DNA from: Treponema sp.
Lineage (GTDB): Bacteria; Spirochaetota; Spirochaetia; Treponematales; Breznakiellaceae
NCBI GenBank assembly: GCA_009785215.1
Contig: WQWU01000012.1
Span: 1 to 50,247, forward strand
Reading direction: 5' to 3'
DNA: 50,247 nucleotides
This document shows, piece after piece, positions 40,070 through 48,382 of this stretch. The stretch's first letter is position 1. Every line of letters starts with the position of its first letter. The notes under the pieces are model-generated. The model was not told the DNA's origin. It ran no database searches and saw nothing but the letters and a program-made list of their open reading frames with translations. Both the position numbers and the translations under genes were made by a program.

Positions 40070-40098
40070 TTGTTTAAATACGCAATGCGTATTATATT
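40070..40098 (+). promoter_or_regulatory. Promoter with spacer-embedded palindromic operator, copy 1
   Basis: TTGTTT, 17-bp spacer, TATATT. The 17-nt perfect palindrome AATACGCA-A-TGCGTATT spans 40077-40093, so it fills the spacer. The -10 ends 6 nt before the ATG at 40105 and there is no Shine-Dalgarno. Binding of a dimeric regulator here would block RNA polymerase or, if MerR-like, remodel the spacer. Confidence 0.75.
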
Positions 40099-40104
40099 TA
40101 TCCT

Positions 40105-43044
40105 ATGCCGGAACATATTAAAATTAAGGCTTTACGTGATAAAATAGCAGCTTCCAAAGCAAGTAAAGCGGCAATTGCTCCATTTATGGCTTCAGTTGAA
40201 TTTGATATGGGTAGGCAAAAACCTATCGGAATAAAAAATCTGTTTATTCATTGGTTAGAGAAGGGTAACAAATACTGGCTTAATCCAATGGATAAAACCG
40301 GCGGGGTTGGAGCGTTAGAAGAAATCTTGTTTAAATACCAGGGAGATATTAATGTTCTGCAGCCTTTTATTCAGCTTTTAACGCAATTAGCCGAAGCAGG
40401 TATTTCTCCAAGGGCATTTACTGAATATGTTTTACTACCTAGAATGCGGCAGGATTATAACTGGCGGAATTGGAAAGAAAATCATCTAGAAGCTTTACAG
40501 ATTATTGCAAAATTACTTATAACGGCAAAGGAACATCCGCCTTTTAATCATGAGCATATAGGGGTTGGCCGGACAAAACTTGCAAGAGATATAGTTCTTG
40601 TCAGGTATATAGGAAGACCATTAGCGTTATATCCCTTGGTTCAATTAAGTGACGAAGAAAAACTAAGACATTACGAAGAAATATGGCAGAAAATTTCCTT
40701 AAAAGATCCTTTGTGTCTTTACTTTATGAGAAATAATGCGCTTCAGTTTGTATATATTATGTCCGGAAAAATAGATCTTATTCAATTAGTTGCTATTGTT
40801 GAGCAGCTTCCAGAAATTGAACTAGCTTTTGAAGCTGTTGTAAACAATAAAAATATTAATTTAAAAAATATTAAAGCAATGAATCTTTATGATAGCGATA
40901 TTAACACAGCAATATTATCAAGAAAAAGCGCCGGTTATTACAGTCTTGATTTTGCCATAGAGATTAAAGCATTTTTTAATATTGTTAAAGCGCTTATAAA
41001 AAAATCTACGGGCGTATATCTTTGTGCTTTTTATGCAAAACTATTAAAAAAATACCTAAATCCTGTAATCGCCGAAATGATTTACAATCTGGTGTGTGTT
41101 ATAGAAGATAGCGGCGGTATGTATATATATAAATGGCATACAAACAAGCTTTTAGGTTTTTCTAAAACAAATATGCAGAAATATCTGCAATTTTTGAAAG
41201 ATCATAATGGATGCGATCCGTTATATCCCAGAGGGCAGCTGCTTTTCCGCGATGAAGATGCCGCAAAAGAGTCAATAGCTGCAGCAAAACTTGCAGAAGA
41301 ATTAGGTTTATGTGATACATTTCTTAAAAATAAAACAAATATTTCCTATAAAGATTTATTATTTGCATATATAAATAAATATCCAGACAATAGAGAGATA
41401 ATCGAAAAATTTCAGAATAATATGCTTTCCGGCACCGACCGTTTGTGGAATAAAGAATTTATAAAACAACTGGATATTTTAGGAAGCGAAAAAAGAAGCC
41501 TGCATGGTTTATTATTACGTTCTATTATTCGCGGCATAGGCAGCGGGTATTCTAGAGTGAGATCTTTTTGTTTTGAAGATGTTTTTAATAAATATGGAAT
41601 TGTAAATACATTGCCGGCTTTAAATGTTAGAACAGTATTTCAGATGCCAATTGTTCCGATAGGGCAAAGCACCTGCGAAAAAGATAAATTTGCACGTAAA
41701 CAAATTAACCTTATTAATATAGAAAAGGTATGGAATGCACTGTGTGAAACTGACCCATTAAATGCAGATTATACACTTTCTTTTATTGATAGCTGGATAG
41801 CTGAACTGACTGAACCTTTTGATAAAGCGTTTAAAAGAAAAATATCATGCGAAAAAGATCTGCAGAAAATGCAGCAAATACCGGATGATGATGAAATAAA
41901 AGAAAAGCTAAAAAAGGATATAACAAAACAAAATAAAATAATTAGTACGCTTATTAATAAGAAGAAGCATTATATTAAAATAATAAAGGAATTTAATTCT
42001 TTAAATGATTTGCAAAAATTTACAACAGCTCTTATACTTGCAGGAAGTAAAGATAATTCTACCGATGATATTTCTTATTATGCGGCAGCTTTGCTTCTTT
42101 ATAAATACAAACATTTAGAAAGTATTTCATCCAGAATGAACTTTCTAAAAGAAGATGTAAGTATAGATGTTATAAGTTATCAGCAGTTGTTATATCTTTT
42201 AAATCTTTTAGAAACCTTATTTATTGAATTACGCGAAGACAAAGAAATAATAGTTCTTTTAAAAACAGATACTGTTTTACAGGAAATACTGGAACCATAT
42301 ATCGTAACAAAAAAGAAAAAAATAACAATGGACGCACTGGACGCCGCTGCAAAAAAAATAACAAGTTTTGCATCACTATTGGCAGAGCGCGCAAAATGGC
42401 AGAGAATCCTTGTCAGCCTGGAAGAAAAAAATGAAAAATATTATCATAATATGGAAATATATACATCTAAAACATTTATGGATTCCTATTACGGCGATAT
42501 GGGAGGAATTTGCCTTTCTTCCTGGCCGTTTGAAATACTGCGCCCTGGTTTTTATATACAGAGGTTTGTAGATTTAACGGACAGACAGATTATTGGAATG
42601 TCTATAATAGGCTTTTCTAAAGGGGGTTTTAGCTGTTCCAAAACACGCGCAAATAAGTATATACATGTTTTTGGTTTTAATCCGCTTTTTTCTTTTATTA
42701 GAAATTTTACTGATGAACAGTTATTTAATTTATATTTACAATTCCGTTTAAACCTGGAAAAAATTGCATGGGAAACAAAACTGCCTGTTGTTCTTTCCGG
42801 GATAGATTCCAAAACCGGACTGATTTCTAACAATCTATACTTTGAGACTTTGATTAAAGTGTTTGAATCAAATATGCCATCTGCAATAAAAGTAAAAAAC
42901 GCAAAAGGTTTTTCTATGTATTATCACCCAAGGGAGTATCAAAGAGCGCTGCTAATAATTGATCCGCGTGGATGTGAGAATATTAAAGACCTTTCGGCAA
43001 TTCCTACTTTTATAGCACATAGACAATTGGCTATAATAAGTTAA
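40105..43044 (+). CDS. Large protein of unknown function (979 aa), accessory module
   Basis: I do not recognise this 979-residue protein. It has no signal peptide and no obvious membrane helix. The first ~570 residues look helical and repeat-like (many LxxLL and IxxL stretches). Residues about 575-640 are a charged Lys/Glu coiled coil. From about 790 the character changes to a compact alpha/beta domain (SYYGDMGGICLSSW, DRQIIGMSIIGFS, WETKLPVVLSGIDS), loosely reminiscent of a GNAT-like fold, though no catalytic motif can be defended. The operator-containing promoter ends 6 nt before ATG. Next is the 77-residue gene, after 30 bp. An alternative start is Met28. It probably works with the VWA-PP2C-kinase genes that share its operator. 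Confidence 0.6.
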   Translation: MPEHIKIKALRDKIAASKASKAAIAPFMASVEFDMGRQKPIGIKNLFIHWLEKGNKYWLNPMDKTGGVGALEEILFKYQGDINVLQPFIQLLTQLAEAGISPRAFTEYVLLPRMRQDYNWRNWKENHLEALQIIAKLLITAKEHPPFNHEHIGVGRTKLARDIVLVRYIGRPLALYPLVQLSDEEKLRHYEEIWQKISLKDPLCLYFMRNNALQFVYIMSGKIDLIQLVAIVEQLPEIELAFEAVVNNKNINLKNIKAMNLYDSDINTAILSRKSAGYYSLDFAIEIKAFFNIVKALIKKSTGVYLCAFYAKLLKKYLNPVIAEMIYNLVCVIEDSGGMYIYKWHTNKLLGFSKTNMQKYLQFLKDHNGCDPLYPRGQLLFRDEDAAKESIAAAKLAEELGLCDTFLKNKTNISYKDLLFAYINKYPDNREIIEKFQNNMLSGTDRLWNKEFIKQLDILGSEKRSLHGLLLRSIIRGIGSGYSRVRSFCFEDVFNKYGIVNTLPALNVRTVFQMPIVPIGQSTCEKDKFARKQINLINIEKVWNALCETDPLNADYTLSFIDSWIAELTEPFDKAFKRKISCEKDLQKMQQIPDDDEIKEKLKKDITKQNKIISTLINKKKHYIKIIKEFNSLNDLQKFTTALILAGSKDNSTDDISYYAAALLLYKYKHLESISSRMNFLKEDVSIDVISYQQLLYLLNLLETLFIELREDKEIIVLLKTDTVLQEILEPYIVTKKKKITMDALDAAAKKITSFASLLAERAKWQRILVSLEEKNEKYYHNMEIYTSKTFMDSYYGDMGGICLSSWPFEILRPGFYIQRFVDLTDRQIIGMSIIGFSKGGFSCSKTRANKYIHVFGFNPLFSFIRNFTDEQLFNLYLQFRLNLEKIAWETKLPVVLSGIDSKTGLISNNLYFETLIKVFESNMPSAIKVKNAKGFSMYYHPREYQRALLIIDPRGCENIKDLSAIPTFIAHRQLAIIS

Positions 43045-43074
43045 TATATTGATGTAATTTACAGGAGGGGGTAT

Positions 43075-43308
43075 ATGTCAAGATATGGTATCAGCGATTT
43101 CAAAGCATTTTCACAATATTACTTTAATTGTAGAGGAAAATTAGAATATGTAAGATTTAAATTTTCACATCATCTTGACCGCAGAGGCATTGAGGTTGAA
43201 CTTGATAATGATGAAAATTTTGAATTTGAGGATGCTTTAACTGACATAGTGGAATGGGCATTCAAGTTGGGAGTAGAATCTAAAGGTGGACTTATTTCCA
43301 ACATGTGA
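43075..43308 (+). CDS. Small acidic protein of unknown function (77 aa)
   Basis: A 77-residue protein with a very strong AGGAGGGGG Shine-Dalgarno about 6 nt before the ATG, 30 bp after the 979-residue gene. The sequence mixes aromatics (SQYYFN) with an acidic stretch (VELDNDENFEFEDALTDIVEW). No family recognised. The strong ribosome site and operon position argue it is real. It may be a partner or specificity factor of the large protein. Confidence 0.6.
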   Translation: MSRYGISDFKAFSQYYFNCRGKLEYVRFKFSHHLDRRGIEVELDNDENFEFEDALTDIVEWAFKLGVESKGGLISNM

Positions 43309-43407
43309 TGATTAGGTTTAATATCGAGGATTGGGTCGTAGATAGCATCGTAAGGAACGATACAAAAAGCGGATATTAGGTTGTAAAAGTACTTCAAAAT
43401 CATTATA

Positions 43408-43436
43408 TTGACAAAATACGCAATGCGTAATATAAT
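43408..43436 (+). promoter_or_regulatory. Promoter with spacer-embedded palindromic operator, copy 2
   Basis: A consensus TTGACA, 17-bp spacer, consensus TATAAT. The spacer contains AATACGCAATGCGTAAT: core TACGCA-A-TGCGTA is identical to copy 1, with one mismatch in the flanks. It is 53 bp upstream of the VWA gene, which has its own GAGAGG Shine-Dalgarno, so this transcript is leadered, unlike copy 1. Confidence 0.8.
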
Positions 43437-43488
43437 GCCGTTATAGCGTATAAATAGAATTAAACTACAAAAAAGAGAGGAAAAACAA

Positions 43489-44181
43489 ATGACCCAAGAA
43501 ACCTATGGCCCACCGCCTTTAGCTCCTGGAGAACCCCATTTAGCATGTGTTTTATTGCTGGATACATCCGGTTCAATGTCAGGATCGCCAATTGCAAGTC
43601 TTAATCAAGCTTTGCAGCGATTTAAAGAACAGGTATCGATGGATGAAATGGCTCAAAAGAGAGTTGATATTGCCATTATCGAGTTTAATGATACTGCTCG
43701 TCTTATACAGGATTTTACTCCAATAAGAAATATGCAGCCGATTACCTTGCAAGCAACAGGTTCAACTTCTATGGGAGCTGGTATTAATATGGCTATTGAT
43801 ATGGTTAAAGGAAGAAATCGTTATTATAACAGCATAGGTACTCCGGTTTTTAAGCCGTGGATATTTATGATTACCGACGGAGGACCGACAGATAGTATTG
43901 ATGAAGCAGCACGCCGTATTCAGGAAGAAGAAAGTAAAGGCACACATGGAAAGTTAAAATTTTTTGCGTTGGGTGTAGAAGGGTATTCTAAAGATGCGTT
44001 GTTTAGACTCACAAATAGAGTAATGGAATTAAGAGATAAGGATTTCTCCAGTATCTTTGACTGGATGGGCAAGAGCATGGTTGCAATTTCTGTTAGTCGT
44101 GTTGGTGAAGAAGCGCCATTACCCTTGCTTCCCGAAAATGCAAAAAAAGCTGATCCAAACAGGGATGTCAGCACTTGGTGA
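43489..44181 (+). CDS. TerY-type von Willebrand factor A domain protein
   Basis: A 230-residue VWA protein. The MIDAS metal site is complete: D25-x-S27-x-S29 in LLDTSGSMSG, Thr in TGSTSMGAGI (about 93), Asp in ITDGGPTD (about 130). The size and order with PP2C and kinase fit TerY of the TerY-phosphorylation triad known from tellurite-resistance-type stress systems. VWA proteins bind partner proteins through the metal, so it is a likely scaffold or the phosphorylated target. GAGAGG is the Shine-Dalgarno. The PP2C gene follows after 35 bp. No TerD, TerB or TerC homologues are in the window. Confidence 0.85.
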   Translation: MTQETYGPPPLAPGEPHLACVLLLDTSGSMSGSPIASLNQALQRFKEQVSMDEMAQKRVDIAIIEFNDTARLIQDFTPIRNMQPITLQATGSTSMGAGINMAIDMVKGRNRYYNSIGTPVFKPWIFMITDGGPTDSIDEAARRIQEEESKGTHGKLKFFALGVEGYSKDALFRLTNRVMELRDKDFSSIFDWMGKSMVAISVSRVGEEAPLPLLPENAKKADPNRDVSTW

Positions 44182-44216
44182 AATTGGCAGTTGTAACTAT
44201 TATGGATGGTTAACAA

Positions 44217-45086
44217 ATGATTTATACATACGGTTTTTCAGAGGTAGGTTCTTCGCATCTGGACAGTAAACAGCCATGTCAGGATGCTAATAAAATTGAA
44301 AGAACAAAAAACGGCTGGATTGTAGCTGCAATCGCAGATGGAGTGGGCAGTTGTAAATATTCTGATGTTGCATCCCGTATTGCGGTTGATACATCTGTTT
44401 GTGTTTGCGTAGACGAGATTAATAAAAATGGTAAAAAAGCTAATCTATTAAAAACAATAGAAAAATCATTTACACAAGCTGAGGGGGAGATAGATAAACA
44501 TTCACTTACCAAGGGACATTTAATAACTGATTACGATACTACGTTGGATTTGGTTATTTATGATGGAAAACACGTTACGTACGGACATTGCGGTGATGGC
44601 GGAATTATAGGTTTAACTGCTAATGGAGAATATCTAAGTATAACATCTCCTCAAAAATCGGAAGGTATTTACGTAGTGCCTTTACGTGCCGGTAAAGATT
44701 CATGGCAAATTGACAATCTCAAAGGGGATTTTGCTTCTGTTTTACTTGCAACCGATGGTGTTTACGATGTTTTCTTTCCTTATTTGTTAAAAGGTAAAGA
44801 AGTTGAAATTTATGTTCCTTTAATAAGATATTTCATGGACAATAATATATTAAAGGCTTCAAAAAAAACAATAGACATTGTCGAAAAAGAAAGGAAAAAA
44901 TATTTTTACAGCGAGGCTTGCTCTTCTATAACAGATGATAAAACCATCGTTGTTCTTATAAATGATGCTGTTAAACCAATGTTAAAAGAGGATTCATATT
45001 ATTCAGAGCCGGATTGGAATGCTCTGCAATTAGAATGGGATAAAAAAGCATATCCGCATTTACATGTAAATAATAAGGTGAAATAA
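44217..45086 (+). CDS. PP2C-family serine/threonine phosphatase
   Basis: A 289-residue soluble PP2C phosphatase. Metal-binding motifs are intact: QDAN (D23), IADGVGS (D41), YGHCGDGGI, LLATDGVYD, and the final DDKTIVVL. It would remove phosphates placed by the downstream kinase. The ATG overlaps sequence right after the VWA gene. Only 1 bp separates its stop from the TTG of the transglutaminase-like gene. As the middle member of the VWA-PP2C-kinase triad its partner assignment is good, but the real substrate is unknown. Confidence 0.88.
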   Translation: MIYTYGFSEVGSSHLDSKQPCQDANKIERTKNGWIVAAIADGVGSCKYSDVASRIAVDTSVCVCVDEINKNGKKANLLKTIEKSFTQAEGEIDKHSLTKGHLITDYDTTLDLVIYDGKHVTYGHCGDGGIIGLTANGEYLSITSPQKSEGIYVVPLRAGKDSWQIDNLKGDFASVLLATDGVYDVFFPYLLKGKEVEIYVPLIRYFMDNNILKASKKTIDIVEKERKKYFYSEACSSITDDKTIVVLINDAVKPMLKEDSYYSEPDWNALQLEWDKKAYPHLHVNNKVK

Positions 45087-45087
45087 G

Positions 45088-46095
45088 TTGTTTTTGGAAT
45101 TAATTGGATTTTTTAAGCCCTCTGATAAATTTGATAGTTTCTATTATAAACAGTTATCAGATAAGCAAAAACATGTATTTAAGGCAATGACAGCCGGTAT
45201 CAAAATGTTTACAAAAGAAATTGAAGTTCCCTTGTTGACGATGGATGAAATAAGCATGATATTTAATTATATCATGCTTGATAACCCGATGTTTTATTAT
45301 GTATCGGCTTTTAAGCAAATAACCAATGTTAATAATCAAAAGTGTATTATTAAACCTGTATATAAATATATTTATTTTTTTATAATGCAGAAAAATAAAA
45401 CAATAAAAGGAAATTTACAAATTTTTAACGAATTAAAATGTAAAAGCGAATTGGAAAAAGAATTATATGTTCACGACTATTGTTTGGATAATTTTAAATA
45501 TGATAATACATTCAGTGATTACTCATATACAGTACTTGGGCCGGTATTAAACAATACTGCTGTATGCGAAGGAATTGCTAAATTTGTTAAACTAACGCTT
45601 GATTATCTTGGTGTAAAAAATATGATTGTGCACGGTAAAGCTAAAAATCCTGTAAACAATATTTTAGAATTGCATACATGGAATATTGTGATAATAAACG
45701 GCAAAAAATATCATTTGGATGTTACTTTTGATATGACACTAAAAAATAAAATAAATCGTTATGATTATTTTAATCTTTGTGATGAGGATATAAAAAAGGA
45801 TCATATAATAATTAATAATCTTCCTGCATGTTTAACAGCAGAAAATGATTATTACTCATTAAGTTCTTCTGTTGTGAATACACCCGGTGAATTGGAAGTA
45901 TTCATAAATAAGAAATTAATCCAAAAAATAAAAACATTTATTGTAAAAATAAAAAACGTGAAAGATAAGGAAAATATCGTGAATAGAGTTATCTCTATTG
46001 CCCAGCAGCAATATCAAAATATTTTTAACTGCGGTGTAAAGGTAGAAGTAAATTATAATATATCCCAGCTAATTTTTGAGGTAAGTTATATATGA
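45088..46095 (+). CDS. Transglutaminase-like cysteine enzyme
   Basis: A 335-residue protein with a transglutaminase/peptidase-like core. Cys160 is in NTAVCEGIAKFVKLTLDYLG, His196 in LHTWNIVIING, Asp211 in YHLDVTFD, giving the Cys-His-Asp triad in correct order and spacing. The N-terminal 150 residues are Lys/Phe/Tyr-rich and unrecognised. There is no signal peptide, so it is probably cytoplasmic. The start is TTG at 45088, with AAGGTGA about 8 nt upstream. Its stop overlaps the kinase ATG (ATGA). A transglutaminase-like gene between PP2C and kinase is not part of the textbook triad and may be the module's effector. Confidence 0.72.
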   Translation: MFLELIGFFKPSDKFDSFYYKQLSDKQKHVFKAMTAGIKMFTKEIEVPLLTMDEISMIFNYIMLDNPMFYYVSAFKQITNVNNQKCIIKPVYKYIYFFIMQKNKTIKGNLQIFNELKCKSELEKELYVHDYCLDNFKYDNTFSDYSYTVLGPVLNNTAVCEGIAKFVKLTLDYLGVKNMIVHGKAKNPVNNILELHTWNIVIINGKKYHLDVTFDMTLKNKINRYDYFNLCDEDIKKDHIIINNLPACLTAENDYYSLSSSVVNTPGELEVFINKKLIQKIKTFIVKIKNVKDKENIVNRVISIAQQQYQNIFNCGVKVEVNYNISQLIFEVSYI

Positions 46096-47453
46096 TAAAA
46101 AACATGATATACACAGGTAAAAGCGGAATTTTATATTATCTTTCAGATAAGCCGTTTTCATCCGGCGGCGAGGGCTTCATACATAATGTTAATGGTAAAC
46201 CAGACATTGTTGCAAAAATTTATAGAATAGAAAAGTTAAGTTATGAAAAAGAACGTAAATTATTAAAAATGATAGATTATAAACCAGAAGAAAATATGTT
46301 AACGCAAATAGCATGGCCTATAGACGTACTCTATGATTCATATAATAAATTCGCAGGTTTTACTATGCGTAAAATGTCTATAAATAAAGATTTAAACGTT
46401 ATTTATGAATATGGTTCAGATAATTATTCCAAATTATTATGGGAAAATAAGATAATCATCGCAGAAAATCTTTGTGCAGTTCTTCATTCAATACACGATA
46501 ATGGTCATCACGTTTGCGGCGATTTAAATCCAAAAAATATAAGCGTTAATCCTGAAACAGGATTTGTTGTGTTCCTTGATACCGATTCTTATCATATTCA
46601 GGATGGTATAAATACTTACCGCTGCGAAGTAGGGATGCCGGATTATTTACCATTCGAAATTCAAAATAAAATGCGTGGTGATATAACACTTGTAACAGCA
46701 AACTTACCTACATTTACAGAAGAAACTGATAATTTTGCTTTAGCTATACACATTTTTCAATTGCTTATGAATGGAGCGCATCCATTTGCTTGCAGAGTAG
46801 ATTATTCGCAGAGTCACCCATCTGTAGCGGCTCCGCAGCCTGTTGATAATATTATTAAAGGTAAATTTCCTTTTATGATGTTTTTAACAGGAATTAAAAT
46901 ACCAGTTTATGCACCGGAAATTAAAATATTAACAAAAAAATTGCAGGATTTGTTTAAATTGGCTTTTATAGATGGTCATAAAGATCCAACAAAACGTCCA
47001 AAACCTGAAGAATGGCATATAGCATTACGTGAATTAAGGCAGAATTTAACTAAATGTTCAAAGGTATCACATCATCAATATTATACAAGTTTATCATCAT
47101 GTCCATGGTGTGAGGTAGATAATAAATTTAAAAAGCCGAGTAAAGCAGCTATTAAGCAAACATTGATAAAAGCACCCTCATATACAACGACTATGAAAAA
47201 TAAAATTAATCTTAAAAAGGCTGCTATTGTAATTATTATTGCTAGTATTATCGGATATTTGATATCTATAAATAATAACGATAGACAATCTGCTGATACA
47301 AGACCGCGCCCGCACGAAGGTGTTTCGAATCCAATAACAGCGCCGGCGAATAATAATCAGACAGCACCAAGACCTGCGCCGGCTCCTGCTCGGCCGCAGC
47401 CTTCGCCTGCACCGCCGCCAGCTGCTATACCGCCGCCCGTAGGCGATTGGTAA
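46092..47453 (+). CDS. COG4248-like protein kinase with zinc motif, TM helix and proline-rich tail
   Basis: A 453-residue kinase. SSGGEGFIHNV is the Gly-rich loop, VAKIY holds the ATP-binding Lys, and HVCGDLNPKNISV (Asp about 143) is the catalytic loop. FLDTDSYHI replaces the DFG motif with DTD, as in the TerY-P kinase group. The activation region RCEVGMPDYLPFE is followed by helices. After the kinase domain, SSCPWCEVD (about 336) with an upstream HHQYY suggests a zinc-ribbon remnant. Then comes one membrane helix (about 376-393) and a 50-residue Pro/Ala-rich tail. The tail lies outside the inner membrane if the kinase is cytoplasmic. The ATG overlaps the previous stop. Confidence 0.82.
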   Translation: MIKNMIYTGKSGILYYLSDKPFSSGGEGFIHNVNGKPDIVAKIYRIEKLSYEKERKLLKMIDYKPEENMLTQIAWPIDVLYDSYNKFAGFTMRKMSINKDLNVIYEYGSDNYSKLLWENKIIIAENLCAVLHSIHDNGHHVCGDLNPKNISVNPETGFVVFLDTDSYHIQDGINTYRCEVGMPDYLPFEIQNKMRGDITLVTANLPTFTEETDNFALAIHIFQLLMNGAHPFACRVDYSQSHPSVAAPQPVDNIIKGKFPFMMFLTGIKIPVYAPEIKILTKKLQDLFKLAFIDGHKDPTKRPKPEEWHIALRELRQNLTKCSKVSHHQYYTSLSSCPWCEVDNKFKKPSKAAIKQTLIKAPSYTTTMKNKINLKKAAIVIIIASIIGYLISINNNDRQSADTRPRPHEGVSNPITAPANNNQTAPRPAPAPARPQPSPAPPPAAIPPPVGDW

Positions 47454-47467
47454 AAGGGAGTGTAATA

Positions 47468-48382
47468 ATGAAGAAACCAATGTACATAATATATTTTTTT
47501 ATATTTTTGATAATAAACAGTATTCCAGTTTTTGCTTCCAATAATGAGACAAGAATATTTGTTAATGGAAAACGGGTGAGGTTTAATCTGCCGTTAAGAA
47601 TAGAACAAGAAATAATACTAGCTCCGGTTAATCCAATAGCTGAAAAATTAAGAGCGGATGTACGCTGGAATGCAAATACTGCAACTACTACCATAATTTA
47701 TGGAAATACAGGAGTTGCCATAGCAGTAGGTAATCCAAATATGACTGTTCGTAACATGGATACTGAAACAATAAATACAATTCCATTATCTGCAACACCA
47801 AGATATATAAATGGCGTTGTTTATATGCCGGTTGGAGAAATATTTAATACATTAAAATTGAATGTGTTATGGGATAGGCAAAGCAGTATATTGCAAATTA
47901 ATACACCTGATTATGTGCTATTTCCTCCGCCGTTACCTTCTGAACAAGTTAGAAATGACTTGGAGTTATCTGCTTATATCAGTTTTAGTGAAAGAGACGA
48001 AGTTGTATTTACCGGTTCTATTGGTTTTTATTTGTCTTTATTTCCTTATACTTTTTTTGGTGTAGAAGCAAGATTAGGAAATCGTGCTGATGTAGTAGAC
48101 AGAGGTGAAAAAAATACTAATGGTACACCTAAGAAAAGCCGTGAAAACCAAAAACTGTATGCAGGAGGAGCTCCTGTTTTAGGGGTATTGTATCCAATTG
48201 AAAATGAAATAAGAATACTGGCAGATATTACATGCGAAATAGGAACTCTTGGAATTGCTCCCGGCGCTGGCATTGGAATAATTGTTGAACATATAACTTT
48301 TAAATATAGGGGTATATTTCTAAATGGTCAATTTTGCAATGTTCTTATGCTTGGTATATCTATACCATGGAATAATAAGTAA
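47468..48382 (+). CDS. Exported stalk-domain (copper-amine-oxidase-N-like) protein
   Basis: A protein of about 304 residues. The ATG at 47468 is chosen for its GGGAGTG Shine-Dalgarno and signal peptide (KPMYIIYFFIFLIINSIPVFA). Residues about 25-145 match the stalk domain: IFVNGKRVRFNLPLRIE, ILAPVNPIAEKL, RYINGVVYMPVGEIF, LWDRQSSILQINT. The C-terminal half is strand-rich with glycines (GVEARLGNRA, GAGIGIIVEHI), resembling a small outer-membrane barrel or lipocalin-like domain. It follows the kinase by 14 bp and is likely in the same transcript, giving the module an envelope component. The function is unknown. Confidence 0.72.
   Translation: MKKPMYIIYFFIFLIINSIPVFASNNETRIFVNGKRVRFNLPLRIEQEIILAPVNPIAEKLRADVRWNANTATTTIIYGNTGVAIAVGNPNMTVRNMDTETINTIPLSATPRYINGVVYMPVGEIFNTLKLNVLWDRQSSILQINTPDYVLFPPPLPSEQVRNDLELSAYISFSERDEVVFTGSIGFYLSLFPYTFFGVEARLGNRADVVDRGEKNTNGTPKKSRENQKLYAGGAPVLGVLYPIENEIRILADITCEIGTLGIAPGAGIGIIVEHITFKYRGIFLNGQFCNVLMLGISIPWNNK

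Follow-up and report, generated by a model that had tools for sequence, protein, structure and literature searches.

The Treponema sp. contig WQWU01000012.1 (assembly GCA_009785215.1), analyzed here over its whole length of 50,247 bases (contig C12, referred to below as the window), carries on its forward strand, between positions 43408 and 48382, an operon composed of a VWA adaptor, a PP2C phosphatase, a transglutaminase-like enzyme (hereafter TGc), a Hanks-type kinase and an exported stalk-domain protein. Its VWA-PP2C-kinase core is a triad of the TerY-P type, a common and known kind, and a gene placed between PP2C and kinase was found only in the window among the loci with this gene order. 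We regard it as moderately probable that the operon encodes a TerY-P-type switch with a membrane-anchored kinase, the stalk protein being its envelope partner and the inserted TGc its output enzyme. The TGc expansion, seen in this genome only, is best read as lineage-specific.

The window belongs to a 1.9-Mb genome in 54 contigs, 75% complete, which was compared with 145 related genomes (146 in total, including many drafts), with E-values calculated separately for each genome. Stretches around VWA and kinase matches were fetched, with flanks ranging from almost nothing to 7 kb, and scored with iterated profiles, 11 mostly weak VWA matches being left out. The 41 stretches that contain triad genes, window included, comprise 38 with all three genes and 3 partial ones, which leaves 37 complete loci outside the window. 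Co-occurrence statistics over the 146 genomes ignore kinship and count the window's genome in.

All seven open reading frames (ORFs) listed in a preliminary description of the window were recovered at their coordinates, and nine window proteins were scanned against Pfam. The catalytic and metal-binding motifs assigned there to the four central proteins were borne out by domain searches and alignments. The stand-alone, TerY-like VWA adaptor (43489..44181) matches PF00092 (2.3e-11) and displays a full metal ion-dependent adhesion site (MIDAS), whose residues D25-S27-S29, T93 and D130 are invariant in nine aligned rows. The Ser/Thr phosphatase (44217..45086) matches PF13672 (5.4e-29), with D41-G42 invariant across eight rows and the GDG and DD motifs kept in seven of them, the eighth, from L102, being short. 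TGc (45088..46095) scores 22.0 bits (2e-4) against PF01841, one bit under the cut-off of 23, and a profile match to PDB 9crn (2.4e-33) covers most of its length; Cys160, His196 and Asp211 are invariant in five aligned rows, so that the triad of the transglutaminase-like superfamily is present. The kinase (46092..47453), without a Pfam match by itself, matches phrog_37888 (3e-35), and K42, D144, D163 and D165 (the DTD variant) are invariant in nine aligned rows. Its C..H..CPWC stretch aligns with relatives as the active-site residues do, no zinc-ribbon or OB-fold model of Pfam matches it, and a simple hydropathy scan displays a single hydrophobic stretch, at 372-390, followed by a Pro-rich tail.

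The last gene (47468..48382) encodes the exported protein expected from the preliminary description, with a Cu-amine-oxidase N-terminal (stalk) domain (PF07833, 4.5e-17) and a hydrophobic N terminus. Its start was revised: TTG at 47447 is possible, but ATG at 47468, which lies 14 bp past the kinase stop with GGGAG ahead, is more likely. Only partial matches to this protein were obtained, in three genus mates. As already proposed, the genes are tightly packed: PP2C and TGc are separated by 1 bp, TGc extends 4 bp into the kinase gene, and neither PP2C nor kinase is disrupted.

The insertion stands out when gene order is compared. In each of the 13 other loci ordered VWA-PP2C-kinase, the last two genes abut or overlap, the largest gap being 3 bp, whereas in the window TGc fills a space of 996 bp between them. 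A kinase tree of 38 rows, all collected by similarity to window proteins, splits into sides of 27 and 11 rows. The larger side contains 21 rows, almost all of them from resident spirochaete triads with the order kinase-VWA-PP2C, plus six of the order VWA-PP2C-kinase. The window kinase falls in the other group (11/38 rows, support 100/100). Its companions there are the kinases of VWA-PP2C-kinase operons from Granulicella (Acidobacteriota), Pseudomonas, Sinorhizobium and two Deinococcus plasmids, that of one phage record, and four from spirochaetes in which the genes are ordered differently. Close relatives of the window kinase were not found in viral contigs. This grouping and the 37 other complete loci support the proposed assignment of the triad to the TerY-P type in the broad sense.

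The closest kinase relatives found (~28-32%) come from the plasmid operons (Granulicella pACIX901, pQBR103, Sinorhizobium, Deinococcus), which share gene order and compactness with the window, and hydrophobic segments appear in four of these five kinases. They differ in that PP2C and kinase abut, TGc is lacking, and the kinases are longer, some with ends that look helix-hairpin-helix-like by eye. Two side observations concern triads outside the window. In Sinorhizobium (L135:1366-7866) the triad directly follows the annotated His-Xaa-Ser genes hxsB, hxsC and hxsA, and the kinase is followed by a protein that has an SH3 domain and a hydrophobic N terminus; the literature searched gave no His-Xaa-Ser link. 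In a phage-labelled record from human faeces (L132:4507-10544) VWA, PP2C and kinase precede a 1049-aa helicase that resembles MkoA of Mokosh (PADLOC, 1.8e-99).

The operon begins with a sigma-70 promoter (TTGACA-17-TATAAT, 43408..43436, forward strand) that matches the consensus at 12 of 12 positions, the only such site among 49 promoter-like sites listed for the region by a promoter scan; their number is not in excess of chance (44.1 ± 6.7). Its spacer contains the palindrome TACGCAATGCGTA (43417-43429), and the same palindrome occurs (40079-40091) at the same spacer position of a second promoter, read by eye as TTGTTT-17-TATATT (40070..40098, forward strand), ahead of a 979-aa gene. The scan does not list this second promoter because of its poor -35 box, which matches 3/6. 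The -10 box ends 6 bp ahead of the ATG, for which reason the 979-aa transcript may be leaderless. The 17-mer, with up to one mismatch, occurs in the genome at these two sites only, at its 75% completeness; the 15-mer occurs in 5 of the 146 genomes, with four sites outside the window's own, each inside a long ORF. The palindrome link between the 979-aa unit and the VWA operon is thus real but private to this genome, as far as sampled. A common operator had been proposed for all the genes; the two copies agree with it, but none belongs to the intervening 77-aa gene.

An origin of the palindrome as a toxin-antitoxin operator was considered and is unsupported: besides the matches inside long ORFs in four related genomes, an 8.7-kb contig of genome G020 that looks rich in toxin-antitoxin genes by eye contains no match better than chance, and two of three matches in viral contigs look promoter-like by eye and lie ahead of unrelated genes. 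The DNA downstream of the operon had likewise been described as mobile and toxin-antitoxin debris, a description that gained nothing from the two ORFs scanned there (48576 and 49516), neither of which reached a family cut-off.

The TerY-P triad of the IncHI2 ter region was reportedly described by Anantharaman et al. in 2012, and the TerY-P anti-phage system is said to go back to Gao et al. in 2020. In an Enterobacter IncHI2A plasmid, a canonical ter region presents in a row terW, VWA, TerD, VWA, a TerY_C protein, PP2C and kinase, the last six in one direction. It has in common with the window the order VWA, PP2C, kinase and a C-terminal cysteine motif in the kinase, whereas the window lacks TerD and TerY_C and adds TGc, the stalk protein, and a kinase with one hydrophobic helix and a tail rich in Pro. 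The two kinases match weakly (27% over half the query), and the IncHI2A one is not among the rows of the tree. In the passages available to us, TerY-P is described as VWA, PP2C and a kinase with a zinc ribbon, tied to restriction systems and, as a stand-alone set, to defence against phages (PMC11090510, PMC7699616, PMC10889362, PMC4978471), and it gives phage protection in Pseudomonas (PMC10889362). The anti-phage system has the same three enzyme types as the window (PMC7699616, PMC11090510, PMC10889362); the passages describe it as stand-alone and with an OB-fold kinase, whereas the window displays no OB-fold model and no PADLOC TerY match. A section on related systems also describes kinases with a zinc ribbon or transmembrane helices beside PP2C and VWA (PMC7159879, section 29), and transglutaminase-like peptidases appear, in the parts available, as occasional effectors of other VWA conflict systems (PMC7159879, PMC8195603). 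Among the nine scanned window proteins, Pfam yielded no MoxR ATPase and no GAP1/GTPase partner.

In the reading that we favor, the operon would encode a phosphorylation switch of TerY-P type, belonging to the branch that occurs on plasmids and in a phage record. The VWA protein, a metal-dependent protein binder, would bring the kinase and its antagonist PP2C to a target, while the kinase would sit in the inner membrane through its one helix, with the zinc-knuckle-like stretch inside and the Pro-rich tail outside, and would probably have the exported stalk protein as its partner in the envelope. TGc, inserted between phosphatase and kinase, would most likely be the output enzyme, a peptidase or an amide-transferring enzyme, switched by phosphorylation or dephosphorylation under stress or phage attack. 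The control of TGc by the kinase, the membrane topology and the role in stress or defence are inferred. The reading is supported by the kinase grouping, the number of other triads, the canonical ter region, the published membrane trios and transglutaminase-like effectors, the tight operon junctions, other triads with inserted genes (L157 and L162), and the coincidence of kinase and TGc in 4/146 genomes, the window's own included, against 1.6 expected (p=0.06).

Several results weigh against it. No TerY_C domain was found in the window proteins by the Pfam scan, while 12 of the 37 other triads have a TerY_C-like protein at their side, which matched PF15616 in the single case scanned. TerD (PF02342) was not found in the genome at its 75% completeness, which agrees with the earlier proposal of a variant without TerD. 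PADLOC returned no TerY match for the window proteins, and the kinase matches that it gave were generic and weak (PD-T4-6, 1e-3; MkoA, 4e-3); its TerY models reach only E=0.023 on a resident spirochaete VWA (L116) and hence are weak for spirochaetes. No stalk-protein relative lies at any other triad in the fetched flanks. TGc adjoins none of the 37 other triads, which leaves a single draft genome, and the structure of its operon, as the basis of the functional link; VWA and TGc coincide in 5 genomes against 3.4 expected (p=0.24, not significant). Finally, an AlphaFold prediction of the 979-aa protein from two sequences gave no usable structure (mean predicted local distance difference test score 38.3, pTM 0.26).

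The distribution of TGc also bears on a rather unlikely alternative, that TGc is a passenger which, as a mobile gene, came to lie between PP2C and kinase and is simply co-transcribed. TGc matches occur in 20 of the 146 genomes, mostly for the core only; in the four other genomes with both TGc and VWA matches these lie on different contigs. No triad surrounds the three best homologues (L118, L119, L120) or the plasmid homologue L137, and none of the TGc relatives examined belongs to one, unlike the window TGc. Cys-His-Asp is common to TGc and PDB 9crn/NF045980 (MAG6410 family), but TGc is no member of that family, since NF045980, matching residues 101-311 (2.8e-17), yields 62 bits against a cut-off of 450. 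The literature searched contained no report joining TerY-P with a transglutaminase. Absence from the other triads, homologues living away from them and the lowest G+C of the operon (26%) all fit a passenger, but its catalytic triad is intact, its junctions of 1 and 4 bp leave PP2C and kinase undisrupted, and its third-position G+C equals that of the kinase (0.233 and 0.232). Slightly less probable still is an operon for envelope or cell-wall homeostasis, in which the membrane kinase and the stalk protein would sense the wall and TGc would trim or cross-link a cytoplasmic or membrane-associated target. In its favor are the kinase, with its hydrophobic helix and Pro-rich tail, and the exported stalk domain, and GAP1-N2 systems, some with membrane kinase-PP2C-VWA sets, are placed near membrane and wall in the section available (PMC7159879, section 29). 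Against homeostasis, a CARF nuclease or a helicase accompanies some of the related triads, and TerY-P protects Pseudomonas from phages according to the passage available (PMC10889362).

The preliminary description had gone further, to a conserved system of seven genes in which the 979-aa protein (40105..43044, forward strand) is the large effector partner of the triad, and this we consider improbable. The identical palindrome in both promoters, found nowhere else in the genome, is in its favor, but profile searches, neighbourhoods and co-occurrence all describe the 979-aa orphan as a stand-alone spirochaete family. It occurs in 13 of the 146 genomes, plus one contig filed as Margulisiibacteriota; its homologues adjoin no other window protein in 14 other fetched stretches, several of which break off with their contig close to the gene and show only part of the flanks, and a repeat of the 979-aa gene beside VWA-PP2C-TGc-kinase was not found there. 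Neither this family nor TGc adjoins a triad in any of the 37 other loci within the fetched flanks, both sets of homologues normally living apart from it, and the 979-aa family coincides with VWA in 2 genomes against 2.2 expected. The protein of the window also lacks the ~30-50 N-terminal residues present in complete relatives, which would fit a recent rearrangement that placed the gene under its present promoter. Of the proposed effector arm, TGc stands within the operon and the 979-aa protein is not conserved with the triad; its gene is probably co-regulated here through the shared palindrome, yet no conserved part of the system.

The profile searches that placed VWA, PP2C, stalk protein, kinase (through phrog) and, near the cut-off, TGc left the 979-aa and 77-aa proteins without a family match above cut-off in Pfam and further profile libraries; MtrH-like and tRNA_NucTransf2 matches of the former were below cut-off and set aside, and its family profile found no PDB sequence at E<=1. 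In three genomes of family f5 the homologues follow PAS-GGDEF-EAL or GGDEF-EAL genes (L029:7322-12194, L030:13662-17868, L035:8040-12655), which hints at a role of the 979-aa family linked to c-di-GMP. A 3-kb contig of the window's genome carries an 87-aa ORF (L021:1366-1629) that matches only residues 906-975, the C-terminal end, of the 979-aa protein, near an ORF that looks like a helix-turn-helix protein by eye. The 77-aa gene (43075..43308, forward strand), downstream of the 979-aa gene and with an AGGAGG-type ribosome-binding site, has one homologue (55%), in G020.

Other triads host additional genes too. A related spirochaete (L157:7003-12160) presents in a row VWA, a Card1-like CARF nuclease (PF09002, 1.4e-12; PADLOC CARF_PDDEXK, 4.5e-191), a 156-aa ORF with a DxSxS stretch and no Pfam match, PP2C and kinase, that is, a nuclease of CRISPR-ancillary type inside a TerY-P-type triad. 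In L162 an ankyrin protein and other ORFs lie between VWA and PP2C, and in L107 (5326-7557) a 743-aa protein just upstream of the triad scores with the VWA profile, PF04679 and PF01068 (ATP-dependent DNA ligase). At 11 of the 37 other loci, resident spirochaete triads have beside them proteins that start with a shared domain of 97 residues, which contains LLADYTKGEYKKE, and continue into different tails, among them FGE-sulfatase, DUF5050, GYF_2 plus biotin/lipoyl, and zinc ribbons. This adaptor-like domain was listed at L105, L106, L107, L108, L109, L110, L115, L116, L118, L161, L164, L165 and L167. It occurs in 21/146 genomes, 15 of them with a VWA match against 3.6 expected (p=1e-9, uncorrected for kinship and with a largely triad-flanking profile, built from triad-linked and L118 copies), and 34 of its 68 copies are no farther than 10 kb from a VWA match. 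These proteins are possibly a family of triad partners or effectors. The domain has no match in the window's genome. The TGc homologue in L118 sits among adaptor-domain genes, but a partnership of TGc with this family gains no support across genomes, three having both against 2.9 expected.

More tentatively, TerY-P triads could be a chassis with an exchangeable effector slot within the operon, filled by TGc in the window, by the Card1-like CARF nuclease in L157 and by arrays of 97-residue-domain proteins in resident spirochaetes, the 979-aa gene having been captured into the regulon through the private operator; we hold this to be possible but doubtful. TerY-P triads are widespread and phage-protective where tested, and the literature passages available do not name the target of the kinase. 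TGc, lying between phosphatase and kinase, is a concrete candidate for an output enzyme with a readable catalytic triad, which makes the question testable, and insertions within triads, such as those of the Card1-like nuclease, the ankyrin protein and TGc, offer a route to more candidate outputs.

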